DNA of 64,000 bases, from contig CM057149.1 of assembly GCA_029964075.1 (NCBI GenBank), positions 38,150,900 to 38,214,899 on the forward strand, written 5' to 3'. The notes below the pieces were generated by a model. It saw only the letters and a program-made list of their open reading frames with translations, did no database searches and was not told the DNA's origin. This DNA comes from Patiria pectinifera (taxonomy: Eukaryota > Echinodermata > Asteroidea > Valvatida > Asterinidae). This document shows, one piece after another, positions 20,201 to 48,859 of the stretch (position 1 is the stretch's first letter; the number at the start of each line of letters is the position of its first letter). Both the position numbers and the translations under genes were made by a program.

Positions 20201-22526
20201 AAAAGGGATGGGACGAAAATGCACGGCGAATGGAACCTAAAATGCATGGTTATGACAATAATTTCGTCAGTTTCTTTTTGGATAGCTGCAAATGATCAAC
20301 TCTCTACCTTTAATTTCCAATTTTTTTAAATTATTTAATTAATTTCCAAATTTTGATATTTTTTTTTATTACAATTTCCAAAATTTAAAAAAACCAATTC
20401 AATTACAATTTCGAAATTTTGAAAAACAAATTCAGTTACAATTTCCAAATTTTCCCATTCCAAATTTCTTAATTTCCAAATTTCCAAATTCCAACATTCT
20501 AGCTTTCCAAATTTCCAAGTTTCAAAAATAATTTCGTCAGTTACTTTTTGGATAGCTGCAAATGACCAACTCTACCTTTAATTTCTAAAAAAAATTAATT
20601 ACAATTTCCAAATTTTCAATTTTTTAATTTTAATTTCCAAATTTTCAATTTTCTTTCAATACAATTTCCAAGTTTTCGCTTTTTCATTTTATTTCCAGTT
20701 ATGCTTAGCAGCGCACGAGAAGAGCATGCAGGAAGCGTTTGCATTCCAGCACAGCAGGGAAGTCCTGTGCTGCATCTGCATGGAGGTGATCCTAGAGAAA
20801 TCACCCGCCAAGGAACGCAAGTTTGGTCTCTTGTCAAACTGCAACCACCCCTACTGCTTGTCTTGTATACGCAAATGGCGCAGCGCCAAGCAGTACGAGA
20901 AGAAAGTCGTAAGGTGGGTGTCAGGGAATGAAAAAGTGCCTTCTCCTTAACGTGGATAATTCAAAGATAGGAGTAGAAAGATCTCTAAATTTCAAATTCT
21001 TTCCAAAACATCTGTAGTGCTTCACCTTCGTTACATTTGAAAATGTCTCTGTTTTTACAATTATTATCACAGTTTGATTTGCCATACTTGCCATAGTTTC
21101 TTCGTTTTTGTTACCTTAAATTATATTTAGCATGGTAGGATATCAGAATGTTTCTGAGCTTATTTATGCATGAAATTTATATCTTTTTGTGTATTTTATT
21201 TCCTACCCAGAGCTTGTCCAACTTGCCGTGTACCATCACCGTTTGTTACACCGAGTGATTTCTGGGTGGACGAACCAGAAGAAAAGAAGCGAGTGTTGGA
21301 AAGATACAAAGAAGCATTAAGGTATTTGTTCGTTACGTGATTACCACACTTATGTGTCCGACCCTTTTGGTGTAAAAAGTCAAGTCTGAAAAAAAAAAGT
21401 TTCAATTAATGTTGAACCGACAAGCGACCTGTAACAATAGATAGAGTTTTAATGGAGCAAATCACAAGTCATCAACATGTTGAGGAAACCATTCATGTTT
21501 GCATATGAACAGTTGCCTTATTACAGTTTCTAAGTAGGGTTACAGAATTTGCTGTAATCCTTAACCCTTAGTTGTCCGGAAAATGTGGAAATTTTTTTAA
21601 TGTTTAAAGAAGCGCGCTTTTCAGTAAAATTAACCAAAAATGGGATGTCAAATAGTTTGATACATATAAGAAGAGTAGAAAGTTGCACAAAATATGTTCC
21701 TAAGAAGAATTCACTTCATGTACCCTTTAATTTATCCTTGAAGGGACAAAGTTTTTCTTTTTTTTCCGTTTCTTAATATGGACCTGCCAAAAGAGCACAC
21801 CAGAAACACTAGCAAAATATATCTAAGGAATAATAACAGCAAGTGTTAAAAGACCCAAACCCACTATAAAGCGTTAAGAAATAAATGGAAATAAAACAGA
21901 ACAAACTAAACTGATCACTTATTAATTGTTGTTTGATATTTTTTCATTGCAGTAAAAAAGAGTGCAAGTATTTCAAGCAGGGTTTGGGAACATGTCCATT
22001 CGGTGCAGAATGCTTCTACCTCCACGCCTACCCTGACGGAACGAAGGAAGACCGTACAAAAGCCCGTCAGTTCACCGGCGGAGACGGCAAGGTCAAGACT
22101 CACCGCTCCTTCTCGCTCTGGGAGTTTTTCGAAGAGCGGGAAAGCCGTTTCATGGACTGGGACAGTGATGATGATGACGACTGGTTCCTGTACTACGATT
22201 GGTCAGATGACTTTGACTTTAGCGACGTTGAGGACCATGGACTCTGGAGCGACTATTTAGAGTTCTTCGGCTCAGGCGAGAGCTCGGATGAGTACAGCGA
22301 GGATGAGGAACGGGAGGTTGCAGATAGTGTGCATGTTGCCACGCCAACCATTGCCATGGCGGCAGCATCGATACAAGGCGCGGCCGCCGCATCGTTGGAA
22401 ACCGATGAGGAAGGGGAGGCGGGAAGTGGTTCAGGTGAGAAGGTGTATGGCGCCATTGCCGTAGCCGTTGATGATGACAAAGATGATTATGATGACGATG
22501 ATTCGGATGATTCTGATTCATTATAA
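14251..22526 (+). CDS. MKRN1: Makorin RING-type E3 ubiquitin ligase with CCCH fingers
   Basis: Seven exons (14251-14309, 16561-16686, 17117-17370, 19273-19514, 20699-20913, 21211-21321, 21953-22526) encode 526 residues in continuous phase. Domain order is that of makorins. CCCH fingers start at C19, C47 and C184, each ending in H. A Cys-His motif follows (C206, C209, C213, H225 region, H233). The RING spans C251 to C304 (C251, C254, C275, H277, C280, C283, C301, C304). The fourth CCCH finger is C340-x9-C350-x5-C356-x3-H360. A PAM2-like poly(A)-binding-protein motif DLVGAAEFVPG lies at 130-140. Family members ubiquitylate substrates and bind RNA. After residue 361 runs a 166-residue tail dominated by Asp, Glu and Ser, longer than the short acidic tail of vertebrate MKRN1. 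MKRN1 is the best name, but an ancestral MKRN1/2/3 orthologue cannot be excluded by eye. The donor of exon 1 (GTTCGT) is weak. Confidence 0.93.
17474..18122. mobile_element. Long-TIR element in makorin intron 3
   Basis: Left arm about 17480-17580 and right arm about 18015-18120 are inverted copies over roughly 100 bp; compare cttttgagttgtgtggtttt with the complement of tacacaactcaaaag. The element interrupts an older repeat that also occurs near 11690-11790: its left half (gaccaattagatca, caggtgaccaca) lies at 17400-17445 and its right half (cactgtgagaatgtacac) near 18148-18165. The interior of about 430 bp shows no transposase. Confidence 0.6.
18355..18374. repeat. Homopolymer-rich stretch next to a GGGCGTCGC end
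   Basis: A long A tract (18205-18245) and this T tract lie between catgggcgtcgc at 18174 and gcggcgccccatg at 18391. The arrangement suggests a small element with inverted GGGCGTCGC-like ends. Similar words occur at 61877 and 62098. No target duplication was resolved. Confidence 0.3.
18650..18930 (-). mobile_element. tRNA-derived SINE-like repeat, reverse orientation
   Basis: On the minus strand the 5' head carries tRNA promoter-like boxes: A-box-like ggcctagtggttagg and B-box-like gggttcaaatc. These are followed by the body word ccacccaggagtataaatgg and an end near gtctgtcacg. The same body occurs in plus orientation at 34540-35005 and, in another subfamily, at 33498-33787. Confidence 0.65.
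19880..20256. repeat. Two-copy tandem duplication, period 197 bp
   Basis: Copy 1 is at 19880-20059 and copy 2 at 20077-20256. Both run from aactgcatcaacttcaaa to aaaatgcatggttatgac with a few percent divergence. It lies in makorin intron 4. Confidence 0.8.
20290..20690. repeat. AATTTCCAAATTTT low-complexity tract
   Basis: About 400 bp of imperfect aatttccaaattttc repeats fill makorin intron 4 directly before exon 5. A dispersed word ttggatagctgcaaatga flanks it at about 20280 and 20550, and recurs near 30450. Confidence 0.7.
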
Positions 22527-30317: not shown

Positions 30318-30323
30318 TTTATT
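30318..30323 (-). terminator. Candidate poly(A) signal for TBK1
   Basis: The plus-strand TTTATT reads AATAAA on the minus strand, about 360 bp after the TBK1 stop codon. It is assigned by position and hexamer only. Confidence 0.3.
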
Positions 30324-30685: not shown

Positions 30686-31334
30686 CTACTCGCCATTTGT
30701 AAGTTGGGGACTTTGACGACCAAACTGACCAGTGCCTTTATCTGTCAGTCGTTGGCTAGGCTCTGGCATAAACTGGTACCCGCTGTCTGGTGTCTGATTC
30801 TTGAACCGACTTGCTTCCTCAAGTGACGATCGCTGACTAGGTTCAGGCATGTACTGAAACCCACTCACAACTGGTGCCTGGTCACTTAACTGGCTAGCGC
30901 CCTCATGTGGCAATCGCCAACTAGGATCTGGCATGTACACCACTGGTGTCGGAGTGTTGAACTGACTAGCATCCCCATGAGGTAATCGTTGGCTAGGTTC
31001 CGGCATGAACTGGTATGCACTCACAACCGGTGTCCGGTCCGTGGTATAAGGAGCTGCATCACGTGACATTCGTTTGTGCGCTTCTGCTACCATATTCTGG
31101 TACCCGACCACTGGTGTTGGTTGGCTGCCAAGCTGACTGCTGCCCTCGCTTGGTAAACGTTGGCGTTGGTCTTGCCGAGTCCTGCTATCGCCTGCGAGTG
31201 ATGCGTGACCGCAGCGAGGGCAAATACCCTCCTGTTCCATTGACAGTGACATCTGCTGCATTGCCGCCATTTTTTGTCGTCCACTTTCCATCTGCTCAGT
31301 GACCAAGTCAATTTCTTGTTCCCAAGCCTCAAAC
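30686..31334 (-). CDS. TBK1: TBK1 exon 17: coiled segment, CxxCxH motif and tandem repeats
   Basis: The exon encodes residues 768-983. First comes a helical stretch ([20 protein letters not shown]) that could be the equivalent of the vertebrate C-terminal adaptor-binding coil. A CPRCGH motif follows at 806-811. From about 827 to 975 there are five to six imperfect repeats of about 24-30 residues, with consensus RLPxEGASQFxxQTPVV followed by [10 protein letters not shown]. The MPEPSQ or MPDPSW core is seen four times. The stop codon is TAG at 30688-30686. The repeats are not part of the TBK1 structure I know, and their function is unknown. Confidence 0.85.
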
Positions 31335-34300
31335 CTGCAAGTAGCAAAACACAATATACCATGAACAAGCTCGATCGGATCTTGGAAGCTGTGGGCCAAT
31401 GAATGTGTGTTCATGCATGAGTCAGGTGAGTTTTGGAGTGTTTTGAGTAACAAAATCAGAAGGAATTTTTTGAGTAACAAAATCAGATTTTTGACCCCAG
31501 TGACCTTATGATGACCTTTGACCCCAGTGTAGTCATGTGACATGTTGGGGCTGGGCTACTGATAATTTGACAAAATTTGGTTGAAATCGGTCAAAATATG
31601 TAGGAGCAATAGACAATGTCAACGTTTGTTACTAACTAACTAACTTAGTAATGGACTCTGTAATCCAAAAGCAAAAAAGAAGAGTTGGGGGAAAATCACT
31701 GGCAGGGATATTAGAATGCATATTGAGGAAGACACCAGACACATAAAGTTATGTATATGCCATGTGTACAAGAGGCGGGGGTTCTAAAAATGTCCCAATT
31801 CACTCACATTGCCTTGACATCCTTGGGTACAAGGATGTACCCATTACTGTCCATAGGTAAGCCTGCAAGTTGCTCTGAGATGGAGGCAATCTGTTCCGGG
31901 GTAACCTCTTGCTCCAGCACCTTGGGGTCTGATTGGGCGAGACCACTGAGTGGAGTAAACTAAAACACAAACAAACAAATGGCGGAGCATTATAGAATAA
32001 TTAGACAGAATGCAGTAAGCATTGTAATTTGTACGTTTGTTAAAACACATGAGGGGCAAGTTCGCGCAACAACCATTAGTCAACTAATGGTTGCGTGGTT
32101 GATGTCAAACAGTGCGCATGCGCTGAAACATTCAAGTGCGAACGACTCTAGTCAAACCTTTGTCAATATATAGTGAACATGAGTATGTTTGGATTATTGT
32201 TTACATTCTATCGTCAAGGCCCACCATATACCAGTGGGTAATACAACTCACTACATTTAATCTCTTGTTAATGGTTTCCTCTGCATGTAAGTAACAAAAT
32301 GAGGCTACTGATCACCAGGGATGCAACCAACCCCAGTAAGCTGGTTCCAAATAGTCCACAAGCATAGTCTAATCATCGTCAACTAGACAGAGTTCAGGCT
32401 ACCTTAGTCAAACTATTGTTAACAATAGTTCTTGCGCAAAGCTGCCCTAGGGTTTAAGCCGTACATTGTCATGAGGTGAAAAATTGCTCAAAAATCCTAC
32501 ACACATAAAACTTAACCTTCTAAACTTTCATCTCAGTCGATGAAATACATTTTAAGAAAACAAAAAAATATGTTCAGTGCTTCTCAGGTCTTGGTAGTGG
32601 ATTGCGTTGCTAACGCATGCTAAAAAGTGTGTCCCCTGGGCGCTGGTAACCTATTGATCTATCGCCGTTTGCGAGTTAGCCACGCCCCTTAGACAACCCT
32701 ATGGAAGTTTTGAACATTCCGTTTTGTTTGTCTCAGATTTTGCACGTTCTGCGTCCATTTGTATATCATGTTATTGGACAACATTTCACAGCTGCTTTAA
32801 CACGATTCTACCGCGATAGGTTAATTATGAAACCACCTTCAATGTGAGTTTTCCACCAAACAATACCATATTTTCAATTTATCAGGGGTGTAAGTAACCA
32901 CTGATAAAAATAGATGAAAACAGCTGAAAAAGGTGCAAAAAAGCTGAACTTTGGAAATCTCCTATACTTTTGTACACAGCAAGTGAGGGAAAAAGCTGAA
33001 AAAATCTGAAATCCAAAACAAAAAAAGCTGAAATCAGCTTTAAAGCTGAGATTTCACACCCCTGATTTATAGTATATGAGTATTAGATACCAGTCCTATC
33101 TGCACTTTGAGCATCAAATCGGTAGGTACTTTTCCGGGTATTTTGCAAATGATCCTACGTGGGTTTATAACCAGATGCAACTAATTTAAAAAGCGTTCAA
33201 GGGAATAATCTGTACCGGATCTGTGTTAGTGCCTACATCCACTGGTCTCCGAGGAGTCTTAGGTGTTGCTCCAAAGGCCATCAAACTATCTTGAAGTGTG
33301 TCTTCGAATTCTAAAACAGGTGGCTGTACATCTGTATCCAGCTGAATTGTGGATAAAAATAAGGAAATGTGAGGCGTTCTGGCAAAATGAGACAGAACTG
33401 GGCAGAAGTTGAAATGAGGGTTTGTGGGTATTAGGAAAGAGAATAAATTTCTCCTTACAATACTGTTGTTGCACTCCATACTGTTTGTTGCACTAGAATG
33501 CCATGGTCCAGTGGTTATGGTGTTTGACTCATGTACAAAGGTTTTGTGGGTTCGAACCTGCCAGGAACATGGTGTTTATGCCCTTGGGCAAGACACTTAA
33601 CTACAATTGCCTCTCTCCACCCAGGAGTATAAATGGGTACCTGTGAGGGTCAAGGACCGATTGAGCGCTGATATCGGCTGCCGCGTGGTCCCATGGCCTG
33701 ATGAACGGGGTAATAATTGTAAAGCGCTTTGAGATCGTTGATACGATGGAAAGCGCTATATAAGCACAATTATGATTATTTATTATTACAATCAGACATT
33801 TTACTGACAAGTTATGGCTATTTTGACACGTAAACATTTAAAAAAAAAAAAAAATACTAAGAAAAAGGCATTTACAGCTTCAAGTTTTGTATTTGTGGAA
33901 ATGAAATATGCCAATATTCTTTCATAAAAAAAAATTACGGAAAGAGTTCCATGCTTGGACACCCTATGCACAAACCCTATGAGATTGGTCTGAAAAGTTC
34001 CAAGTCTGTTCTCAGTAAATGCTTCAATATATTCCCTGCTAAATTTGATTTTTTACGACATGTTATCGCTTTCTGATGACTGATAGGTCACCGCTGGGAA
34101 AAAATTGTGTTGTCCATGGATGGAATTCTTCCAAAAAACACTTTTATTCCACTTTTTTTTAATACTATTTCATTAAAATATGTGTAGTAGACATATCAAA
34201 GATTACAAATATCAATAAATCTGACAATCTAAAAAAAAATTCCCACTTTTTATTTTTTTTGCAATTTCTCCATTACGGCCTATGCCCAGTTGCGTCTCAG

Positions 34301-37300
34301 TTTGCCAGAACCCCTTACCAATATCAGACATACAAGAGCCGTGGTCAGCAGCGAATGGACAAAATTCAAAATGCACAATGGTGTTACCCAGGGTAGAGTC
34401 AGTCCAAAACTTACCATGTGAACTTCCTGTAACAAGACCTGGTAGTCCCGAACTAGCTGAGACAGTGTTTTGTCGACTGAGCGAACCTGCTGCCGGAACT
34501 GATGAGCGATTCTGTAGCAAACGATAATCAAGTATTTATGCTGACCATTGGTGGGGGAGTGTCCTTGGGCAAGCCACTTAACCTCCATCTGGGTCATTCT
34601 ATAAATTTAGGGTCCAAAGTGTGACATTTTTCCCGTCCCTGTTACCTTGGTACTTTGTAATTTGCCATTCAAGCATCATTAAAAGTGACTTCAAACAATT
34701 GTTTATTTGTTGGGTAGGTAGTTTGCTATTCATAATCACTCTTGGAGGATGACTGCATTAAGGAGTGCATCAGAATTATAAAATCATAGATGTCAGATGT
34801 AACAGGGACAGGAAAAAAAGTGGACCCCAAATTTATAGAATGACCCACCTGCCTCTCTCCACCCAGGAGTATAAACTAGTACCGGCATTAGCTGGGGGGT
34901 ATTTTTACCTACAATAGACTGGCATCCCATCTAGGGGGAATAAAAAGATTGTCGGTCATCTCATGTCAAGGAAACTGGATATAAACATTGGCTCATGACA
35001 GACTTTAATTTTTACATATTGACCATTATACAAAATGTTTCTAGATTCCATTTGAAGTTTATGTCAAGTTCCTGGAAGCCATGACATTTGATATTCAAAA
35101 GAAGTGTGAGTTATTTTGTGAGCCATTTTTATTTTGCATTCCTTGTTTTGCATTGTTCAGTGCAACTGCATGGTGATATGGTCATCATTTATTCTTAAAA
35201 AAAGGGTTAGAGTGGTTTTATTGACCAAGTGCTACAGAGGATTTTCCACAAATTGAACATTAATGCCTCAGACAGCACTGTGGTCAGGTAATCACAAGTC
35301 AAATCACAGTGTGGTGTTGTTTTTTTATCTGACTTCTGATTGCCTTCTGGCTTGTGATTTGTTTGAGATTGACTTGTGATTGGCTTGAGATTGGCTTGTG
35401 ATTGACTTGTGATTGTCTTGTGGTTTGCTTAAGATTGACTTGTGATTGGCTTGAGATGTGTTTGAGGTTGCGTTGTGATTTGTTTGAGATTGACTTGTGA
35501 TTTGTTTGAGATTGACTTGTGATTGACTTGTGATTTGCTTAAGACTGACTTGTGATTGACTTGCGATTTGCTTAAGACTGACTTGTGATTGGCTTAAGAT
35601 TGACTTAGGATTTGACTTTTGTTTTGACCGATGACTGACTTGCAATTAACTTTTGTGTTTTGATCGACTTGTATCAGGCTTGGTACAAATACAAGTACAG
35701 TGCATCAGTCTTGTTACCAAATTGACTACTTACGTGTACCACTCGCTGAGCTTCTGATGGATAGTTTTCCATCTCAAATCACAATGACTCTGGCAAATTG
35801 ACATTGCCTGAGTGCTTTTAAGATTCAGCTTTTCTCTATCAAAGCAAAAAAAAGAACATGGGGTATTAGTATAAGTTATTAAAACAATTTGGTATTCAGT
35901 TTTGAATGAGTATTTTAAAAATCACCGAAATTTGACTGAATGGAAACAAAAGAATGGAATGTAAACTTACTTGTCCATTTTGTGAATCTGTTCTTCATTG
36001 TATGACAAATGTTTCTTCTGTTTTTCTTTCTTGAACTGGGTGTAGATTTTGTGCGCTTCCTCCGTAAAAATTGCAAACCGTTTTAAACTGTAAAATACAA
36101 ATTCTAAGTCAGAAACAAAAACACACACTCGGTTAACATATTTTCTGAGATACTGATTCCAGATATTTTTTTTTTATTAATGTAAGCATTGGACTGAAAA
36201 GCTTTCATTACTGAAAGCCATTTGTGTATGCAAACTTGTATAAATACAAAAAGGCCTAAATTTTGAGTGAAAATCAGGTAAGTGTTCTTTCAGCAAAACG
36301 AAAACAAATCACATAGGGATGTGTGTGAATTGTTTTTGTTTTGCTGAAAGAACGCACACCTTTTGTGTGATCTGTGGACAGAACTTTAACACGGTGGTTG
36401 TGTTTAAAATTCCGTAATTTGAAAAGTACATGAGTGATTTGAATGATTCTTGTACTAAAAGAAAGCTTACAAATTGGGCTTTCATATCCTACATTTTTGA
36501 AAGTGCTACATGAAAAATTTCACTAAAACAATAGTCCCGACATTTGGGTTGTTTTTTTTTTACTCCAAATTCTATCACACAAGCCAATGGTTGGTGTACC
36601 GGGTATTTTCATTGTGAATCTTGGGATGAGGTAAAGCCACTGCTGCTGACAATGCCACAGTTTCGTAAATTCTCATTCTATATTCATACCACACATAACA
36701 TGGTTTCAGTGCCTCTTCTGACGCGGCCCATTTCTTTGTCAGCTGGTCTTCGTCAATCAGATACTTCATAAGACCTTCCAGCTTTTTCTTCACACCGTTG
36801 TATGAATTGACCATCTAGTTCAAGGAAATTATTAGTGCTATCTTCAGGCGGTGGTCTTCAAAATTACATGAATCAAACTTGATAGATGCTTTTGTAGTGT
36901 AACTGCTAACGGTTTATGTTTGCCTCTAGCCAAAACTTAAATGTAAATTACGATGTTTAAAATCAACAGTCAGTGCTTTTAATGAATTTGCTGTTACTTT
37001 GTCTGGATATTAACACTGAAAAGTCCTGTTGAAGCACTTTTGTAACTTTACCTAAATCTAAACTAACAAGATTGTAAAAGTGATTTTTTTTTAGCAGTAG
37101 CAATATGTGAGCTTTTCCTGAGCCTTGAATATCTGTTTTACGCCCCAACGACGTTATTATAATGCTCACATTCATTGAAGAATAAGGCAGATTCCATATT
37201 GAATTGATGTGTTATGAAAATTCTAGACCAAAAGATCGTTGAAGTTTTATCAGAATCAAAATGCTAAATGTCTTAAAATTAAGATCATTTGGAGAGTAAA

Positions 37301-40300
37301 CCCTTACCACCCTTAATCCTTCAAAACCCTCTTTGCCAAAGTGGAGGAATTTGGAGGATTGAGGTTACATGGCAAAAGTGTGTTACTGATTTTGTGGGAT
37401 GCACTTTGTCAAGGTCTTGGGCCGGACCTTGTGTTGTTTTTGCTCAGCCATGCATAAATATAGGCCTGGATTATGCTTGAAATCCTCCGTACTGCTCCAG
37501 GATGTCACTGGCCAAGCCTCAACATATTAACAGTCACTGCCGCAGGATTTAGGCAGTGGTCACCCCTCCACAGACCATATTCAAGGAATAATGGAGGAAT
37601 TTGCAGGATTGGGGCTATATGTTTTTTTTCCCCATGAGGCCAATTGGAGGATTTTGCAGGATCTAGGCTACATTTTAGCAAAAAGGCCTAGGGAGTTACC
37701 GGTAGGGTTAATACAATTTTGGTTTCAAAGGAATAGAAAAAAAACACACATGAATAAGCACTCACTGGAGCTACTTTTATCCTGATCCTGGTGACTATAT
37801 CTTGAATGCTCTGTAACCGCACACCGAGAGAGTCTTGGTCGGGTATCCTGGAGAAGACTGATGCTGATACAAGAGGCGAGGGCAGTGTTTGCTCGACGCA
37901 CAGAAGTCGCGTGTCAACCTCCACGATGCTGGCGTGGAGCTTGACGCAGTGGTAGTCTAACTGCCTCACCTCGGCTTTCAGAACACATCTGCGAAAAGGA
38001 GAAAGATACCATGCTAGTCTTTGTCCAAGTCTTGATTTGGCTTTTTTCCCCCTCATACAGCCCAGTCCCTTCCCCTTGGAAGTACGGTCACGTTGCCTTG
38101 GCAACAGACCTCATTCACAGTGAAGCCATTTTTATTGTGTTCCCCGAATGTCGCACGTTTTTAAATATACGCTCAAAACAGTGAGCACGTTTACAGTGTT
38201 ATAGCTCGTGCAATACGTTCTTGTATCCCCGTCAAAGCCATCCAATACTTTATAAATATGTTCCTAGAGGCTGTTTGCCATAGTGACCGACAACCACATT
38301 ACATACTTACACAATTGCCTTGGAGACCGTTGTCATGAGCTCTTGCATAAAGGTGAGGTTCTGTAACCATGCCAACATGTAATACAACACAGCCACTGAC
38401 ATCTGCAAAACACAAATGAATTGTTATAACCGCGGTTCTGAATGACTACAACAGCCAATCGTTTAATGTTATGTTCAAAAATTGAACTTTTCAAGCATTT
38501 GAATTCAAATCTTCGGAATAACTGCGACTGAATCTACTTCTCACAGATGTAGGGCCCAATTTCACGGCGCTGCTTAACAGTTAGCAGAAAAGGTGTGCTT
38601 AGCATAGCAGAAAAAATTTGCTAACCTTAAGCACTATTTCACGGCGTGGACGTGCTAACGGTCGCGCGTGCATGGAGATTTCTATTGTTACGTCACTAAG
38701 TTAAGCAAATCTTTCCTCTGAAGTAAGCATGCCTTTTGCAGTGTTTATGCTTACAGTCTCCATGAAATAGACGGAGGCTCTGTTAGCAGAAAATCATGTG
38801 CTAAGCAGCGCCGTGAAATTAAGCCCCAGTGTTGACTGTCAATCCCTAGCAAAGTCTTCAGCCATATCTGAATTGATCGGCTATGACTAGGAGTAACATG
38901 TGTCTCTAGAAGTGGCTGTGTCTACTTCCCATATACATGTGTGTCAAGGCTAGCCGTGGCTAATTAGCCATGGCTAATTAATTCTGGACACAGTCTTAGG
39001 CTGCATCCAAATTACTTAACTACGGCTTGCAATAACACATGCTCGAATGGTAGCCACAGCCACTGAATTGTACTTCCCATGGAAATGTGTGACACTGATA
39101 GCCAAAGTCGAGGAATTTTGGACGTAATCTTACCTTGGCCATGTTGGCGTCTTTGTCAAGGTCATAGGTCGAGGACATCTTGGGTAACTTGGCTGTGTGT
39201 CAAAGCGATGGCAATTTGGGGTCAGGATCGGCGTGGCAATCATTTAAAATTAAAAGGAACAAAATGTGACTGACATGTAGAATGCTTGGAGTTATAAATA
39301 GCAATACCCTGAAAAAGTTGCAGGTTAACGTGACACCATGCTCACGCGCAGTTGGCACACACGTGCTGGTTGCTCCTTTGACCAATTGGGTTTTCAAACG
39401 AGGCATGCACCTCACATTTAGAGGCACGACTCGGTGTTGTAAATACTGATCACCAGATTGGTTTATGCTTACGTTGAGAAGGTGTCTCCACACGTGGAAA
39501 ATCACTCCTGCCCACCTCCAACAGAATCACAGGGTTCTGAGGAGTCGTCTCTGGGTAGGACTCGCATTTGAGCGAAGCGTCCGGGCAGAAGCAGTCTCGG
39601 TCCCAGACCAATGCCTGGGTCGTGGCTTGGACGCCAGTCTGCTCGGCAACGGCCTCTTGGAACTCTGCCAACGTGCCGCGCGGCTCCGCGTAGATCTTGA
39701 GACATTCCGACTTCGAGACGTGGAATAGGTCGACCACCTTCATGGCCAGTAAGACTTGGACTTCGTCAAAGAATTGGTTGAAGGTCCACATTCGCTCCGG
39801 GTTGCACTCCAGCAGGCCACGCAGGATTTTGGTCAGCAAAATTTTCAGACCACTTTTGTAGTAAAGGGGGGGGGGGGAGAAATTGCATGAAAAGCAACAA
39901 TAATAACGGGAAAGTATCACATTTTGACTCTAACAAATTTTTGTGAATATTGGGTTGAGGGAGGGTTGTACATTCCTCAATAATTGTTTCTGTTAGCCTT
40001 TAAAGCCCCAATCAGCATACGAGCCATTAACTTAATACCACGGGGTCCCGCCCCCCATTTTGGGGGCAAATATACCATAATAAATAATACAACCTAAGTC
40101 AAATACAACTTAGCAGTAAATATCTGGCTGATACCATTAAGTAGTTGGTCCATACTAGATCTGCGTTACTCACAAACACAAAGGACTTGTATCATACTCA
40201 ACATTTTGAACTAGGTCTCAAAACTTAACTCAAAAGACAGATCAGTAGTCGTAATGGTTGGCTCTTGCGTTCCTGATTTGAAGGAACCTGCGCTCCAGGA

Positions 40301-43300
40301 ACATCAATTTCTATAAACCAAGGCCAGACACTAGAAGTATTCTTCTAACTGACTCCAAAGCAAGACATGAAGCCTCACCCCAAGCTGAAGCCAGGTTTCA
40401 AAAACACCCATAATATATAAATGGTCTGTTACCCGGACTTTCCACCTACCGTGACAGTCTGCATGTGTTGGGTAGCTCCGAGCTCCACTCTATAGGCCCA
40501 TTCATGGAATCTTTCTGCACTCCAGAAATTACACCGGACTTTTTCTTAGTAGTTATGTGAAACCTGAACGAAAAAAATCCCGGAAATATGCATCAGCAAA
40601 AAGATCGAATTAGCGTCAGAATAACTTGTGAAAGTCCAAAGATAATTCAATTAGTTGGAAAGTGACACAAAATTAATGGGTAATTCAACAAGAATATTGA
40701 CTGGTTTTTTTGTTTGTTAACAACTTCATATTTACCACAAACTTAACAAGAAGAAAATTTGGTGATTTTACGAAAACGACAAAAAAGTCTTCTAATTCTT
40801 ATTCAAAACTAAAGAAAATCTATCCACTTTACATTGTCTCCCTGTTTTTTCTGCCACCAAATGGTCTGAAGGGAAGTACGCCGGTCGCGACGTGGTAGAA
40901 CGTAATGCCGATACTCCAGAGGTCAATACGAGCCGAGAAGGTTTTGCCTGTTGGTTGTCTCAAGACAGCACGCTCGTATAAGTCTGGATGCTGAAAGCCA
41001 AAGCAAGATACAGTTATAAAAGAAATATATGACCTTCCAATCAAAATTGGGGGAGGGGGGAGGAGGGGAGTGATATAACATCTCTTGTTAGAACTTGATT
41101 AAATAACTACTGAGCCAACTTGCTGTACCCTATGTAATCCTGCTGCCTGCATCCACTTTCGTGCACAAATCTACAGCAAGCTCGAAATTTTGTGCGGCTT
41201 TTGTACAGATACTTGCATATTAGCGTTTGTATTTGTGTATGAAGCTGATGCGCACAAAACTGAAACACAAGCACAAATTTAAATGAGTGCTTTAATTCGC
41301 TCCGCGCAAACAACGCACAAGAGCATTTACCTGCTTCCGACAATTTTGTTCATACTGAAACTGCACATCTGAAATTCCATATTCTCTATGTTAACTCTCG
41401 CGTGGCGATTTCAAGAATCGTCATCACTGCTGCAATTCCAAATCCTCCAATTTTAAAAAATTAGGCCAAAAGTCCTTTGAAGGCCTGTCTTTTAAAAAAA
41501 TATTTATTTGATAAAAAGTTTATTGTTAATAGTAGATTGTGTGTAAAAAAATTGTGCACTACAGTTGTTTGTTTGTGTTTTGTGTCATTTTTTTTGTGTC
41601 ATTTTTTTTGTGTTGTTCACAACAAAAAAAACAAACATAAATGAGCTTTTTTTTAGAGAGGTTTTATAGTCATTGTGTTTAAATGGTGATATTCTTTGAA
41701 CGGTTTGAGCAACTTAAGTAATTTTTTTCATCTGAAAGTAGGTTATGAAATTGGCTTTCTAGTCATTATTATTACGGTACTACATATTTTTTAAAATATG
41801 AAATATATATTTTGGGGGTTTGGGTTCCGCTTTTTTTTTTTACTCACCTTGTATGTTTTACAATCAAAATGTCTGCGTCCAGGCTTAAGAAAGCATCTTA
41901 CGCGAAAGATTGAGAAGTTAGTGCTCATCATAATACATAAGGTGACACCCTATGAACTTACCAAATACTCTTCAGTTCCATATAGAGACATGAAGTTCTC
42001 GTCATCTTGCAGCTCCCGCGCCGCACCAAAGTCGGCGAGTTTGTAGACCGAGCTGCCGTCATCACCAGTCACTATCATGATGTTACCTGGCTTGATGTCG
42101 CGATGGACAATGTCCAGGTCTCGCAGATGCTTCATGCCTGCACCTATTGACCGGGAACCAAATAGACAGTCAAACCAACAAACAAAACAAAACGACAATC
42201 AAATATTCCAGTGTTCTCTATGTAAACCATTCAGAGCATGTATCACTGTACATTCGTGGAGGCCCCCGTCAATGGCGAAAGCATCATGTCAACTTTTGTG
42301 CAAAGCAACTGCCCCATATGATGGATTATCTGAACAAAGGCTGGCAAAGAATGTTGCCTCCTGACGCCACATTTTTCATCATATATTATCTCAATAAAGG
42401 TCAGTCATTGCAAAAATGTTGAAAAGACATGAATTTGGGACAGAGAAACATTTCCAAGTTTGTTAGGAATACTTAGAATATATGCACTTGACTCTCCATA
42501 GACTTTGTACACAACCACGGAAGTGGCGTCAGATACTACATTCTTTCCACTGGCCTGATGCTTTGCTCACTGAAGGGGGCCACCGTGGGTGTTTTGCCCG
42601 GAATGGTCTACATTGAACATCCCAGTTTTTAACCATACAATGAAGTCCTAGCAGATATTTAAACACGTGCAACACACAAATTAGCACAGAAAACAAACAA
42701 AAACGAACCAAGTGTATGCACAAACGAGGTGTATGCACAAACAAACCAGCCCACACAGGAAACCCTTTCTATTACCAAATGTTACAAATTCTCTCTCAAA
42801 TTCAGCCCAAAAACCATGTGCAACTGGAGTTACCTGCAGGTGACTGGCTGGCAGCACAAATAGACAAACACACAGACCAACAAAGGTGAAAGACTCTTAC
42901 AGACATCTCCCAAGACTCGCTTAAACTCCACCTCCTCCATCCCATAAGAGTTCTTTGGGTCCTCCAGAAGACTATAAAGACTTCCCCCGGAGCACAGCTC
43001 CATGATGATGACTGGATTCTTGCTGATTTGCTACAAAACCAAAAAATCAAACAAATATCGACTGTTTCAGAGCAACATTTCACAGTCCCTTTTGACAACA
43101 TTATTATAAAGATTTAAAATAACATTGCAAATTGGGTCAAACATAACAGGGGATGAACAATGACAATGGAATGCATCATTCATTGGGATAGCTTGTGATC
43201 ACTTGTGATGGCATGTGCTCGACTTGTGTTGACTTGTGATGACATGCGATGACTTATGGTAACTTGTGATGGATTATGCTTGACTTATGCTTGTCTTGTG

Positions 43301-46300
43301 ATGACTTGTGATGACTTGTGATGACTTGTAATGACTTGTGATGACTTATGATGACTCGTGATGACTTATGATAACTAGTGAATGACTTGTGATGACTTGT
43401 GAATTGTGATTGACCTGTTATGACTTGTGATGATTTGTGATAACTTGTGATTGACTTCTGATTGGCTTATGACTTGTGATGACTTATGATGACCTGTGAA
43501 GTAATGATGACGTGTGAGGGACTTGATTACAATCGTTCCATGTTAGCAAGTTAAACACAATCTTCTTTGAGATTGTCCACTGTGCTCAACTTACGTCTTG
43601 TTCAATGTCAAACAGCTTGACGATATTTCGATGGCTGAGTTTGAGCAAGACGTCAAACTCTCTCTGCTGAACACTCTGCGGTCGCATGTAGCTGAGACTG
43701 TTGAAAGCCTTGGCTGCCACCAACTCACCCGTTTTCTGGATATATACAGAAAGAAGAAGGGTTATAGGCTTAAAAAAAACCCGAGTCTGTAGCGAAAATA
43801 CATGTACCTGTACATACATTTGCACGCCTCTGCTAACTGAATGATCCAATTTGTATACAACTGCTTTAATTCTATTATATCATTTTAACCATTTCACGTT
43901 TGGGGACATGTAAACACGATCCGGCAATGTTCATTTGCAGGGGGGGGGGGTGACACATTAAATCGTCAAGCGGTGGACGTGTATACACTTCAGTGATTCC
44001 CATTGGTTTTGAACACACCATGTTTTGAACTTGAACTTGGCCACTGTACAAGGCCTGTTGTCGAAGCAAATATCAGAGTGTGCCAATCATGTTACGGTGA
44101 GAAGTATCGTACACATTTTGTACAAAAGAGTCAGTACTTGTGTTGATTGACTTAATTTTATCTTGTCTTATTCAAAAATGGTGTTTTTCCAGCCAAAAAT
44201 AATCCTGACAGCAAGTTGTTTGAAGCATTGGCATTGCTTAGTGTATTACATGTATATTCATACTAGACCTAAGTTTTTTACAGACACATTTATGAGAAAT
44301 TTAATGTCTAATGAAACAGAAGTGAAGAGGCTTCCATTTGAAAGCAGGTAAAATTATCCTGATGCGACTTTAATTTAATGAAAACATAAATGCATGTCTC
44401 TTTACAAGTCTTAATCTGAAATGCTGGAATTACACATATTTTCTTTGGTTTTCTTTGGAAAACCTGTAGTTGTGAACAGTTACCTGTTTTAGGGGAGAAT
44501 TTATAAAATAAACACAATTGCCATTTTGAAATAGAATTGCGTAGATTGAAAACAATCAATGTTAGGGTACAAATAGGATTCTTCACATAGTCTTTTATTA
44601 ATAAAGAGTTTGTGGGTTTCTTTTTTGGAAGAAAATTTGTGAGAAAATGATATCCATTTGAAAAAATAAGTTGTAACTGACTTTGGGCAGTTAGGAGATG
44701 GCGATATTCTAAAAGGTACCAAAATGGTGCTTATCGCATTTTGGGAATAAAACTCTTCATTTGTACAGTCATTTCCGGCTGACACACAAGCCAGATAAGA
44801 CATAGAAATGAGGGCTTTACAGTAAATTATCATTGTTGGAACAGAAACTTGTTTGATTGACTGAAATATACACAAATATTGAACTTTAATCTTTAATTTG
44901 TATGTACAAAGTTAAAGGTTCGTTTATATACATAGCGCACACGGGGTTAAAGTTCCCAACACTTTTTCAACATGAAATTGTTAAACGTGTCCAGTAACAC
45001 GAAATCTTAGAATTAAACTATATTATCTAAAAGGTAAAAAAGTATGCAAACTGAACTACATAAACATGAAAAACTGTTGTGTAAAAAATAGCATTTTCCA
45101 TTATGACAACTACATGTTCACATTTAGTTATCCAACCAAATTTAACACTTAAAAAATTGCACATATATTTCTTTTAAATACATGTACATGATACAATTTC
45201 TCAGCCCAGACAGATTATTGTCATACATAATGTATGTGTGACAGTGGCGAGTCCAAGGGGTGCAGAGGCATGCCCCCCCCCCTTACGTGACTCAAAAGCT
45301 GGGAATTCCCCTATAGCACGCAACATACTGTATGTATACATGTTACTCATGTTGGATGAGCATGTACTATGTACAGTATTTAGTACACGTTTTGAGCTAT
45401 AAATAGAGGATTTAATTTGGATAAAATTTACAGCAGGATGAAAAAAAGGGGAAATTCAGTTCCTTGCAACTTTCAGGAAAAAGTTTGCGGACGAGAAATG
45501 TGTACTGTGCAATAACGTAATGTGTACAAATGGTAAGACAGAAGTATAAGAAATTTAAACAAGTGTGTAAGATTACATAATGTATCCTGCTCCTATTACA
45601 TAATTTGCATGTGAATAAACTTAATTGTTTGTGTGTTTATTTCCTTTTACGGGTCCCCACTGTGTATGTACCGACTATATCCTGGTTCAACTACTTCCTC
45701 AACTATGAAAGTTGTGAAATTGTCCCTGAGGTTCAAGGAAATTGAAGAAGAAAAAAAAATATCAACCCCCCAAAAGTTCATTAAACAAAACAGAAGTACA
45801 ATGGAAACTTATGATAATAAAGGAAACCATTCAAAGTTAGTGAATGACAACAAAATGCAGAGTCAACATAACACAGAGATTTACTACCAAAGGGAGTACT
45901 GCTTGAATGTACCAGTACATTGTGCAATGCATAAATACAGCGAATACTTGACTGGTTTTATTGTATGGATCAATGGTATTGCACACAAGTACTATCAATA
46001 GTCACTATCTGGGGAATTCCCTTTCTGTTTCCCAAATTTACCACAATGGGCGGTCATAGCTTTTTTTATGCATTTATCATGTGATTCGTGCATATTGCAA
46101 ATAGACTTTACAGATTGCGCATCAAAGTAAAGAATCATTAAGCAACAACTAAGTCACATTGGATAGGTTATTGAATACGCAGGCAAAAATGTTTCCATAT
46201 GTTTAACTTTGTCATATTCTGATTATATAAATACACATTTGCAATACACGTAACGTTGGGTCATAAGTTATCCTTTTGATTTCCTGCTCACAGATCCCGG

Positions 46301-48859
46301 TTTCAAAACCTGGAAACAATGATATCGAAAGTGCATTCTTTCATAGAATGTCTCTGAAACATGTGACCAAAATGATGAACGGGTAATTCTCTTGGATTTC
46401 TCCAAACCACTTCTCTTTTCAGAGTAATACGTCACTTTCCTTGGCATTGCCAGACTAACTTGTGAGGGAAGGGGATGCAGGATTTTGACTACACAATTGT
46501 CGACCTACAGTTATGGGCAGTAACAAAGCCACAAAAACTTTCTCTGAAATTTGCCAACCGCTGGATTATAACAAGAAGAGAGCAAAATTCCATTCAATTG
46601 ATTCAGAATAGCTTTTCACTGGAAGTATTTCCACGTATCCGGTCTGTTGCAATGAGCCGGATGGAGCCCATTCATTGGAATTGTGGGGTAATCCTATGAC
46701 CGTCATCCGTTCCGAATACCACAAAACCTTTGCGTGTTTACACGTCATGCGACGTGAACTGTTTATACCGGCCAAGTACATATTTATTTCCATCCATAAA
46801 TACACTCTCGATCAAATAATCAAAAGTTCTCGGTCCAAAAGTCAAAACAAGTCAAAAATTATAAATTTCCTTGAACGATTTTATTCAAAAATTTTACCTC
46901 ATGTTTTTCGGGACACCCCTCTGGCTATATTATGGTATGTCCATTCTTGCTAGTGTCGTAAACAACTCCTTTTATGGAGATTGGTGTGCGCGTCGGGCGT
47001 ACTGTGCGATGTGGCACACAACGCAGCTGTGCCGGGGTATTGTGAAGTTAGGACTATGAAATTCTGACTCACTGTTAGTATTGCGCATGCAGGTTTCGTG
47101 AGGATTGTGAACGTTCAACCAATAAAACGGTAAAAGGCACCGGATTTCATAGGAGTCCAAATTTCATGTGATACTGGAAAAGTGTTTAAGACCAGCCAGC
47201 CGGTCTTTATCAACCATTTAAGACCGGCTTCATGATGGGCTCTGGAACAATAGGAATGGGTAAACTGTGACCCCAGACTGGACTCGAACCCACAACCTGC
47301 AGAATTGCCCACAGACCACGAATCCAATGCTCCAGACCACTAGGCCATGGCACTCCTCGGCTGGCCAGTTAGTAATGGTAGTCTAAAGTGGATGTCTAAG
47401 TTTTATACTTAAATAGATTTATGTAGTTGAGTAAATTTTATACAAAAATGGTGTAGGGTCAGGGTGGCCAAAACACACCCATCGCCCTTCTTGTTAAAAT
47501 CTGGGTTCTGAAACTATGGAAGCAGTTTATGCTACTTGCTAGCCACTTTTTCCAAAAGTAACACAATTTTGCCATAAAGAATGATAGTTTTTCCAACATA
47601 AGTAAGATACAAATATAACATGGTTTGAGGGTGGATACTCGATTTTAACTCCCAAGGTATTGGAAGTTGACAAACTAGTTCCAGATGTGAACCCACCCGA
47701 AATAAACCATGTTATATTTGTTTTATTACATCTCATACATAATCAGTTGCCGAATTTTCCCGTTGCAGTACGCACCTCGGCATAATCTTCAGAGGAAATC
47801 GTCCAGCTCGCCAGAAGAATATTGCTCAACCTCAGAAAAGTTCATTTTTCTGCAATACGGTAACTCCTAAGAGTTTTACCGCTTGTGAGCCATTTTTTTA
47901 ATAGAGGATGCATCTTTATTATTAGCCTCAATATATTCTCCACTTTGGCATCACTGAGCTAAGGGAAACAATGGTTATTTTGAGTGCCGGTATCGCTTCA
48001 GGTGTAGCTAGGGTGATGTTCACACATATGTACTACATTCGTGCGATAGTTCCAGAATTGCTTCGCAAGGCGCATTATTTACCCCGTGCATGAATACTCG
48101 CATGCGAGGCTTGTGCGCATGGTAAACAGCAAAATTAGCGGCTGGCGCATGATGGTGAATGGACAAGTGAGAATCCGGCTCTTGATCATGAATATGTATG
48201 AGGTATAGCTCGCCACTGAGAACTTGAAGTGCTCAGTCTCATGTCCGGCAGGAAAGCCTGCAGTTATCAAAGGTCACACGGCAGTGATTCAATTCATTTC
48301 TCAGAAAGTAAGTTACAACCATTTATCTTGTTGACTTATTGGCACGATATAACAGAACAATTGTGAGAAAAAATCACTCGGGTGGGACTCGAACCCACGA
48401 CCTCCTGCTTACTAGTGCAGACATCTTACCAACCACCGAGCTTGCCAGGATCGGCTGGCTGGTTCGAATCAGATACAGCAGCAAGTACCGCAATAAAACA
48501 ACAATTGTTAAATGTATTACCAATTTGACAGTCGAGGTAATTCTGATGGATTAACTTAAAAGTCATCACAATTCCACCACAAGTCATGCAGTCACAAGTT
48601 TTTTTCAAATGAACTGTGACAAAACCATACTTATGTTATCGTTTATCTGTGCTTTACTTGTGACTGGACTTGTGATGAACTTGTGATCTATCACAAGAAC
48701 CTTGTGATCCTTGTGATCCATCATAAGTACCTTGAATTCACCACTGTATATTACCTTGTGCCGGCCCCTGTAGACAGTACTGGTTGCACCTGTGCCAAGG
48801 ACATCATTCAAGTACCAAAGGTACGACTTGGTGCTTCGGATCTGACTGGAAGCAGCCAT
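30686..48859 (-). CDS. TBK1: TBK1/IKK-epsilon-type serine/threonine kinase with repeat-bearing C-terminal tail
   Basis: Seventeen exons, 5' to 3': 48859-48755, 43735-43595, 43030-42901, 42143-41962, 40990-40833, 40563-40450, 39852-39473, 39192-39134, 38402-38311, 37988-37766, 36814-36690, 36087-35971, 35835-35734, 34511-34415, 33341-33216, 31959-31808, 31334-30686. They encode 983 residues in continuous phase. Visible: glycine loop [10 protein letters not shown] (21-30), lysine K44, catalytic HRD (D141), DFG (D163) and activation loop [10 protein letters not shown] with S178 at the place of human S172. The ubiquitin-like domain follows ([13 protein letters not shown]...), then the helical scaffold dimerisation region ([36 protein letters not shown]). 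In animals this kinase acts in innate nucleic-acid sensing and autophagy. Vertebrate TBK1 has 729 residues; the surplus lies in the last three exons. The family assignment is secure; TBK1 versus a common TBK1/IKBKE ancestor is not decided. Confidence 0.95.
32653..32825. mobile_element. MITE with TTGACCTATCGCC ends, copy 1
   Basis: It runs from attgatctatcgccgtttgc to gcgataggttaat and is the same element as 55556-55715, sharing gcgagttagcca and gtccatttgtatatcatg inside. It lies in TBK1 intron 15. Confidence 0.65.
32883..33064. mobile_element. 182-bp element with CAGGGGTGT ends and 6-bp target duplication
   Basis: ATTTAT flanks it at 32877-32882 and 33065-33070. The ends are caggggtgtaagt and the complement of atttcacacccctg. 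The larger element at 57905-59130 has the same termini. CAGGG-type ends suggest a hAT-related, non-autonomous element. It lies in TBK1 intron 15. Confidence 0.75.
33498..33787 (+). mobile_element. tRNA-derived SINE
   Basis: The head has A-box-like tggtccagtggttatgg (33505 on) and B-box gggttcgaacc (33548-33558). The body contains ccacccaggagtataaatgg. The tail has aaagcgctttgagatcg and gaaagcgctatataagc, and ends in tatgattatttattatt. Polymerase III boxes plus a short AT-rich tail repeat are the hallmark of tRNA SINEs. It lies in TBK1 intron 14. Confidence 0.8.
34540..35005 (+). mobile_element. SINE-like repeat body split by a MITE
   Basis: The left fragment contains gtccttgggcaagccactta and the right fragment cctctctccacccaggagta; in the intact SINE at 33498 these blocks adjoin. 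The inserted DNA is the MITE at 34591-34846. The 3' part (ggcatcccatctaggggg, tcatgacagacttt) matches the reverse copy at 18650-18930. Confidence 0.7.
34591..34846. mobile_element. MITE, GGGTCATTCTATAAATTT family, copy 2, inserted in a SINE
   Basis: 256 bp with ends gggtcattctataaatttag and the complement of caaatttatagaatgaccc. It aligns with copy 1 at 11160-11411. The flanks suggest a 4-bp duplication with one mismatch (atct / acct). It lies in TBK1 intron 13. Confidence 0.8.
35290..35660. repeat. GACTTGTGATTG minisatellite
   Basis: More than twenty imperfect 10-24 bp units of the type gacttgtgattggcttgaga occur in TBK1 intron 13. Just before them is the inverse word atcacaagtcaaatcaca, as at other ACTTGTGAT loci in the window. 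Confidence 0.8.
37297..37711. repeat. GGATTTTGAAGGATTGAGG family element, copy 3
   Basis: About 415 bp in TBK1 intron 10, with repeated ttggaggattttgcaggat words and the shared block cagtggtcacccctcca. It aligns in the same orientation as 53668-54085. Confidence 0.6.
38552..38827. mobile_element. MITE with AATTTCACGGCGCTGCTTA ends
   Basis: The left end gggcccaatttcacggcgct and the right end agcgccgtgaaattaagccc are inverted copies over about 28 bp. The interior holds further partial copies (gctaaccttaagcac, tttcacggcgtgg). It lies in TBK1 intron 8 and has no coding capacity. Confidence 0.75.
39473..39852 (-). CDS. TBK1: TBK1 exon 7: end of kinase domain and ubiquitin-like domain
   Basis: It starts [20 protein letters not shown], the end of the kinase C-lobe, and continues into the ubiquitin-like domain ([20 protein letters not shown]). 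It ends in phase 1 with donor GTAAG at 39468-39472. Confidence 0.93.
41962..42143 (-). CDS. TBK1: TBK1 exon 4: catalytic and activation loops
   Basis: It encodes [20 protein letters not shown], then [20 protein letters not shown] and YGTEEYL. All catalytic residues expected of an active kinase are present (H139-R140-D141, K143, N146, D163-F164-G165), as is the phospho-acceptor S178. Acceptor AG is at 42144-42145 and donor GTAAG at 41957-41961. Confidence 0.95.
42357..42546. mobile_element. CTGACGCCAC-family inverted-repeat element, copy 2
   Basis: The left end aaagaatgttgcctcctgac and the right end gtcagatactacattcttt are inverted. It aligns with 50252-50450 in the opposite orientation. It lies in TBK1 intron 3. 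Confidence 0.65.
43146..43530. repeat. ACTTGTGATG minisatellite grown from a MITE fragment
   Basis: It starts with taacaggggatgaacaatg, the complement of the MITE interior at 10450-10470. About 30 degenerate gatgacttgt units follow, up to about 43530. It lies in TBK1 intron 2. Confidence 0.75.
47180..47360 (-). mobile_element. tRNA-derived SINE-like fragment
   Basis: On the minus strand it carries gccatggcctagtggtctgg (A-box-like) and gggttcgagtccag (B-box-like). It ends near ggctggctggtcttaaac. It lies in TBK1 intron 1. Confidence 0.55.
47609..47721. repeat. 113-bp hairpin element
   Basis: The left arm acaaatataacatggttt is complementary to the right arm aaaccatgttatatttgt, with inner words gggtgg / ccaccc also paired. 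It lies in TBK1 intron 1. Confidence 0.65.
48352..48490 (-). pseudogene. tRNA-Ser(AGA)-like repeat module
   Basis: On the minus strand there is an A-box-like segment ggtggttggtaagatg, the anticodon-loop-like word cactagtaagc, and the B box gggttcgagtcccacc. The same module, with loop word ctagaaa as in tRNA-Ser(AGA), occurs at 54835-54905 and about 57090-57165. It lies in TBK1 intron 1, close to exon 1. Confidence 0.5.
48585..48745. repeat. ACTTGTGAT-family repeat fragment near TBK1 exon 1
   Basis: It contains cagtcacaag, aaatgaactgtgacaaaac and several cttgtgatgaacttgtgat units, matching the MITE at 10374-10517. It ends only about 10 bp from the TBK1 exon 1 donor. Confidence 0.6.

Follow-up and report, generated by a model that had tools for sequence, protein, structure and literature searches.

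A TBK1-type kinase gene of the sea star Patiria pectinifera with a tandem repeat array in its C-terminal tail

The last exon of a TBK1-type kinase gene in the sea star Patiria pectinifera holds an intact open frame that encodes six tandem protein units, and this array matches no place in the genome other than its own gene. The gene resides in a 64,000-nucleotide stretch of contig CM057149.1 (assembly GCA_029964075.1, positions 38,150,900 to 38,214,899), which we call the window and to which coordinates refer unless noted otherwise. The central claim of the original prediction, a TBK1-type kinase bearing a C-terminal repeat array, is supported by matches to PDB and Pfam entries, by the gene model, and by the self-match score of the tail.

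Our leading, if tentative, reading is that the tail serves as a disordered multivalent docking strip on one TBK1 copy. The predicted end helix would come first, followed by approximately 180 probably unstructured extra residues that end in the six units. Each unit may present one partner protein with a similar short linear motif (core [FY]MP[DE]PSxR in R2-R5, with [TSA]P close by). TBK1 dimerizes, and a dimeric kinase equipped with such tails could hold several partner molecules together and thereby gather at a signaling site. Binding of partners by the tail, and any effect of the resulting clustering, are parts of this reading that we infer rather than observe.

Results and discussion

A TBK1-type gene with 17 coding exons

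A spliced model of 17 coding exons on the minus strand encodes a protein of 983 residues. All 16 introns have GT-AG ends and consistent phases, although the splice sites were picked by hand to preserve frame and homology, and phase agreement is therefore no independent test of the model. The gene and the domains of its protein are as follows.

48859..30686, minus strand: TBK1-type gene, 17 exons, 983 residues (hand-built model and domain homology)
48859-48755, 43735-43595, 43030-42901, 42143-41962, 40990-40833, 40563-40450, minus strand: exons 1-6
39852-39473, 39192-39134, 38402-38311, 37988-37766, 36814-36690, 36087-35971, minus strand: exons 7-12
35835-35734, 34511-34415, 33341-33216, 31959-31808, 31334-30686, minus strand: exons 13-17
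39822..48808, minus strand: protein kinase domain, residues 18-287 (Pfam PF00069, E 6.2e-46)
39516..39740, minus strand: TBK1 ubiquitin-like domain (ULD), residues 315-389 (Pfam PF18396, E 6.4e-13, 48.8 bits against a cut-off of 31)
34427..39184, minus strand: TBK1 coiled-coil domain 1 (CCD1), residues 407-671 (Pfam PF18394, E 3e-33, 115.9 bits against a cut-off of 25.9)
31810..34426, minus strand: linker, residues 672-767, comprising the end of exon 14 and exons 15 and 16 (gene model)
31334..30686, minus strand: exon 17, end helix and C-terminal tail, residues 768-983 plus stop

Judged by its kinase similarity, catalytic motifs, ULD, and CCD1, the gene is an animal TBK1/IKK-epsilon-type kinase. 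The catalytic motifs are intact, with HRD at residue 139, DFG at residue 163, and an activation loop present. A PDB search, whose query was an approximate concatenation of open reading frame pieces, gave TBK1 as the best match (E 3.5e-113) and IKK-alpha as the next (E 8.5e-31). No IKK-epsilon chain is among the best 60 PDB matches, and so this ranking does not distinguish TBK1 from IKK-epsilon.

The protein exceeds vertebrate TBK1 in length (983 versus 729 residues) by 254 residues, close to the 250 or so originally proposed, but the extra tail itself accounts only for about residues 804-983. The alignment of CCD1 to PDB TBK1 reaches model residues 657-658, and the linker that follows is probably longer than that of human TBK1, as estimated from alignment coordinates on the assumption that the two end helices correspond. 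On the same assumption and in the same coordinates, the 254 extra residues would divide into about 168 for the tail, about 64 for the linker, and 22 that precede the linker.

Several other features were noted in and around the gene. Ahead of the end helix, the linker includes a Y-I-L-V stretch (in GYILVPKD; residues 758-761, window 31828-31839, minus strand) that is a candidate LIR-like motif. Two introns carry repeats (35207-35645 and 43254-43466, minus strand) that read open, with SQSQxNHKS-type peptides among them, and that are not coding evidence. A plus-strand gene (50672 to about 56270, its extent set by reading) stands head to head with the kinase gene, the start codons being about 1.8 kb apart; we take it to be NOL9-like, and it has a weak CLP1 P-loop match below the cut-off. 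Another plus-strand gene (19269-22526), presumably Makorin-like, lies about 8 kb past the TBK1 stop; its CCCH fingers are encoded in one open reading frame and its C3HC4 RING in another.

A predicted helix at the start of exon 17

The original prediction had exon 17 begin right after the helical segment at which vertebrate TBK1 binds adaptors. This proved wrong, as the first 34 or so codons of the exon themselves encode a predicted helix.

31232..31330, minus strand: predicted helix with coiled-coil heptads, residues 770-802 (AlphaFold2 and heptad score)

AlphaFold2, run on exon 17 alone as a single sequence, returned a mean pLDDT of 55.6 and placed this helix at exon residues 2-34. Confidence is high over the first 20 exon residues (pLDDT 94), and past residue 30 it averages 45-60 per ten residues, a low confidence that is expected for any orphan stretch modeled from a single sequence. 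A second, low-confidence helix appears at exon residues 77-85 (residues 845-853 of the protein), within the first repeat unit. The heptad a/d pattern of residues 768-803 exceeds that of shuffled sequences (P 0.006), and their helical moment is barely above shuffles (P 0.048), with the best 28-residue window ranking approximately 120th of 955 in the protein.

Excerpts of one study give residues 677-729 as the adaptor-binding CTD of human TBK1 (PMC5027247). The helix predicted from exon 17 appears to lie where vertebrate TBK1 carries its adaptor-binding helix. Sequence homology between the two is not claimed, as their similarity is not significant against shuffles (P 0.66, 0.59, and 0.30); the human helix scores best against model windows that start at residues 518-536, inside CCD1.

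Six tandem units in the tail

Beyond the helix, the translation carries the motif CPRCGH at the residues originally reported, followed by the repeat array.

31205..31222, minus strand: CPRCGH, residues 806-811 (read from the translation)
31073..31159, minus strand: R1, residues 827-855 (29 residues, second half degenerate; protein unit alignment)
30989..31072, minus strand: R2, residues 856-883 (28 residues; protein units and DNA repeats)
30917..30988, minus strand: R3, residues 884-907 (24 residues, 4 shorter; protein units and DNA repeats)
30833..30916, minus strand: R4, residues 908-935 (28 residues; protein units and DNA repeats)
30752..30832, minus strand: R5, residues 936-962 (27 residues; protein units and DNA repeats)
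30689..30751, minus strand: R6, residues 963-983 (21 residues, truncated last unit; protein unit alignment)

The expectation of five to six imperfect repeats at about residues 827-975 agrees with the six units of about 28 residues found here, except that the array runs to residue 983. The repetition is beyond chance: the best ungapped self-match of residues 811-983 scores 105, a value reached by none of 300 shuffles (maximum 47). At the DNA level, three repeat families (D1-D3) have copies 63-76% identical to their reference copy, at successive spacings of 72, 81, and 84 nucleotides, and of 156 nucleotides in D3; Tandem Repeats Finder, at a score of 30, listed no array in exon 17. The core [FY]MP[DE]PS[QW]R is kept in R2-R5, and every one of the six units has a proline preceded by T, A, or S.

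The tail of about 180 residues is predicted to be probably unstructured, and disorder-promoting residues make up 62% of residues 811-983 versus 47% of the first 400 residues. A reading of CPRCGH as part of a classical zinc finger or ribbon was rejected; there is no second Cys/His pair after CxxC, no cysteine in residues 811-983, and no Pfam match to the exon.

TBK1-like loci on the same contig

Searching the genome with the ULD model yields five places, namely the window gene and four others on the same contig, at 26.776, 26.847, 26.886, and 27.357 Mb; the match at the last of these contains two stops. These four matches lie within 0.6 Mb of each other and about 11 Mb from the window. We designate the corresponding loci A, B1, B2, and C (contig coordinates).

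26771553-26783583, minus strand: TBK1-like locus
26844379-26856080, minus strand: TBK1-like locus
26879385-26890961, plus strand: TBK1-like locus
27357441-27376531, minus strand: TBK1-like locus

A tblastn search with the window protein recovers, at loci A, B1, and B2, the kinase followed by the ULD and by a portion of CCD1 (the CCD1 matches having E values of 0.005-0.015). Locus C shows later kinase exons and the ULD, its start probably lying outside the fetched stretch. Kinase exons and ULD are common to all four loci, and part of CCD1 to three of the four. Over the aligned kinase segment, loci A, B1, and B2 share 66.8-67.7% identity with the window copy and 60.3-61.6% with PDB TBK1, to which the window copy is 64.5% identical. 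Loci A and B2 have opposite orientations, and the 7.1 kb compared at the 3′ end of each show 98.4% identity. Locus B2 also carries an EVLVPK stretch similar to the GYILVPKD of the window gene.

A conserved stretch 3′ of CCD1 is common to A, B1, and B2, with A and B2 the same there. After TGCAG, one frame of this stretch reads LQ[ND]WQIRRPETQAIVKK. Its first 32 residues pair ungapped with the start of exon 17 at five identities (P 0.011 for B2 and 0.003 for B1 against shuffles, values uncorrected for the choice of frame, which was made partly for a shared Trp). Another frame is also open for at least 27 codons in both B1 and B2, and the upstream donor is not settled. We tentatively propose that the conserved stretch is the matching last exon in an array-less form. 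Unlike exon 17, this proposed exon would stop after 44 codons in B2 or 42 in B1, with no array in loci A, B1, and B2, the three read at their 3′ ends. A permissive tblastn search for the array region near the cluster loci gave only chance-level pieces, at E 23 or more.

Possible constraint on the repeat units

It is a serious possibility, if short of probable, that slippage or unequal exchange simply lengthened a disordered tail behind the helix, and that the expansion is translated and tolerated with no specific partner. Such an origin fits the uneven lengths of the units (24-29 residues, with a last unit of 21) and their degenerate ends, as well as the three other TBK1-like loci that lack the array in the 3′ end read and the failure of any known motif to be retained in every unit. 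However, the frame is preserved across six diverged units, and the units differ from one another at the protein level less than neutral change predicts.

The latter point derives from a protein-guided alignment of R1-R5, with R6 and gapped columns dropped so that 24 codons remain, which was compared with simulated stop-free neutral change matched to the observed number of base changes. R1-R5 show 43 amino-acid differences from their consensus versus 51.8 (sd 3.4) under neutrality (P 0.0083), and R2-R5 show 30 versus 36.8 (P 0.0158); R3 with R4 alone shows 10 versus 12.9 (P 0.09). In 14 of 15 unit pairs pS is greater than pN (the exception being R2 with R6), an outcome towards which a protein-guided alignment is biased. 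The shortage of amino-acid differences modestly favors selection on the protein, and we regard selection on the units as supported, not proven.

For the reading of the tail as a docking strip, then, we weigh the gene model, repeats beyond chance, selection, disorder, the single genome match, and the three loci with no array in the 3′ end read. Against it we weigh the lack of a known motif kept in every unit, the modest signal of selection (as for R3 with R4), and an end helix not significantly similar to that of the human protein.

Candidate docking motifs

None of the recognized docking motifs recurs in every unit, which counts against a docking strip. Residues 811-983 hold no match to TRAF6, LIR, SH3, 14-3-3, PPxY, NPxY, DP[FW], SxxxL, pLxIS, or STING-type motifs, and hold one TRAF2 motif (P 0.39) and one PxQx[ST] (P 0.31), both at chance. 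Other motifs occur within the repeated unit, such that shuffle tests overstate the enrichment of YxxM, SQ, [ST]PVV, and [PAE]xxS: there are three YxxM (residues 846, 875, and 954; P printed as 0.000 with 2000 shuffles), seven SQ/TQ (P 0.035), three [ST]PVV (above shuffles), and ten of the very loose [PAE]xxS pattern that we take to be USP7-type (P 0.005), the last two mostly or wholly within repeats. Six [ST]P are present and are not enriched (P 0.137).

YxxM motifs pair with SH2 proteins, among them the regulatory subunit of PI3K, and these counts raise the prospect that docking is regulated by phosphorylation, whether through SH2 proteins recruited by YxxM or through an SQ- or proline-directed kinase for which the tail is a target. 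We consider this improbable, given that the counts are those of a repeated unit and that R3 and R4 lack YxxM, while [FY]MP[DE]PS is kept in R2-R5. A PI3K-recruiting array would carry one YxxM per unit, and here only three units have the motif. A Pfam search for TBD (PF12845), the mark of vertebrate-type adaptors, gave no match in this genome and none in 14 control genomes, and is thus uninformative.

Proposed splicing of exon 17

Exon 16 ends at 31808 ahead of the donor GTGAGT, and exon 17 opens with GTTTGAG behind the acceptor TTGCAG. As originally claimed, the frame is intact behind a proper acceptor, open through to TAG, and the phase (2) matches across 31808/31334. It is the only stop-free frame of six, the other five holding 5 to 16 internal stops each, and the GC content of the exon is 0.527 versus 0.395 in intron 16. 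Splicing of exon 16 to exon 17 is by these features supported, not proven. Past the stop, the following signal is present.

30318..30323, minus strand: AATAAA polyadenylation-type signal, about 360 nucleotides past the stop

A TGA lies directly past the exon 16 donor (31804-31806, minus strand), and retention of intron 16 would yield a protein of 768 residues that lacks both the helix and the tail. This immediate stop on read-through, together with hand-picked sites that deprive the phase agreement of independence, allows that the usual transcript retains the intron or uses another last exon. We judge this very unlikely in view of the canonical donor and acceptor with agreeing phases, the stop-free frame and its GC content, a predicted helix with a coiled-coil pattern at the point where one is expected in TBK1, and the similar exon start tentatively seen at other TBK1-like loci.

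Uniqueness of the array

In searches of the 613.5-Mb genome at E≤0.001 and at E≤10, the only place matched by exon 17 or by the array is their own gene. Pfam returns no family for exon 17 at E≤10, a PDB search with the exon gives only matches at E≥2, and scans of viral and prokaryote contigs gave 2 and 55 pattern matches, respectively, with none confirmed, as expected for an animal gene. Fusion of TBK1 with a mobile element-like or newly duplicated sequence, or with a piece of another gene, is contradicted by these results in the sea star's own genome within the sensitivity of the search, and can be set aside as exceedingly improbable.

The proposal that the array is lineage-specific is partly sustained, in that PDB 6nt9 stops at residue 729 without an array, the array has its single match in its own genome, and three TBK1-like loci lack it at the 3′ end. 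Among the titles and abstract openings listed in literature searches, none reports a repeat tail on TBK1.

Comparison with known systems

TBK1 is a meeting point of DNA and RNA sensing, NF-kB signaling, and selective autophagy, and how it comes to cluster at the correct site is a central question. Vertebrate TBK1 (PDB 6nt9, 5w5v, and others, which we take to be human chains) has the same order of kinase, ULD, and CCD1, with an end helix after a linker. It differs in that the chain stops about 47 residues after that helix begins, versus about 215 in the window protein with its CPRCGH and array; 6nt9, on which the natural end is based, is the one TBK1 chain among the PDB matches listed that has both the kinase and that end.

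Short motifs in flexible tails that recruit signaling proteins are familiar from the STING C-terminal tail and from IRS-type YxxM arrays, the latter presenting them several times over. The tail described here differs from both, as residues 811-983 have neither a STING-type TBK1-binding motif nor pLxIS, and YxxM occurs in three units.

Among invertebrates, the scallop TBK1/IKK-epsilon CfIKK3 likewise has kinase, ULD, and CCD1, but comprises 773 residues rather than 983, and excerpts of its description do not mention a repeat tail (PMC9879056). A TBK1-like transcript is named in sea cucumber, according to excerpts of two reports (PMC4906609, PMC4264123). In oyster, STING knock-down blocks the rise in TBK1 expression, and an interaction in which TBK1 binds STING is reported as well (excerpts of PMC8218723). 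The TBK1-recruiting tail of STING is described, in the portion of one source consulted, as vertebrate-only (PMC6723221), and so recruitment in invertebrates must work otherwise. One TBK1 copy may have acquired a multivalent docking array of its own, in place of or in addition to the separate adaptors of the vertebrate kind, with tail-less duplicates assuming other duties, a scenario that we regard as speculative and rather unlikely. A TBK1 with its own repeat tail, in a genome that also carries seemingly tail-less duplicates, would nonetheless constitute a natural test of how recruitment of this kinase evolves.
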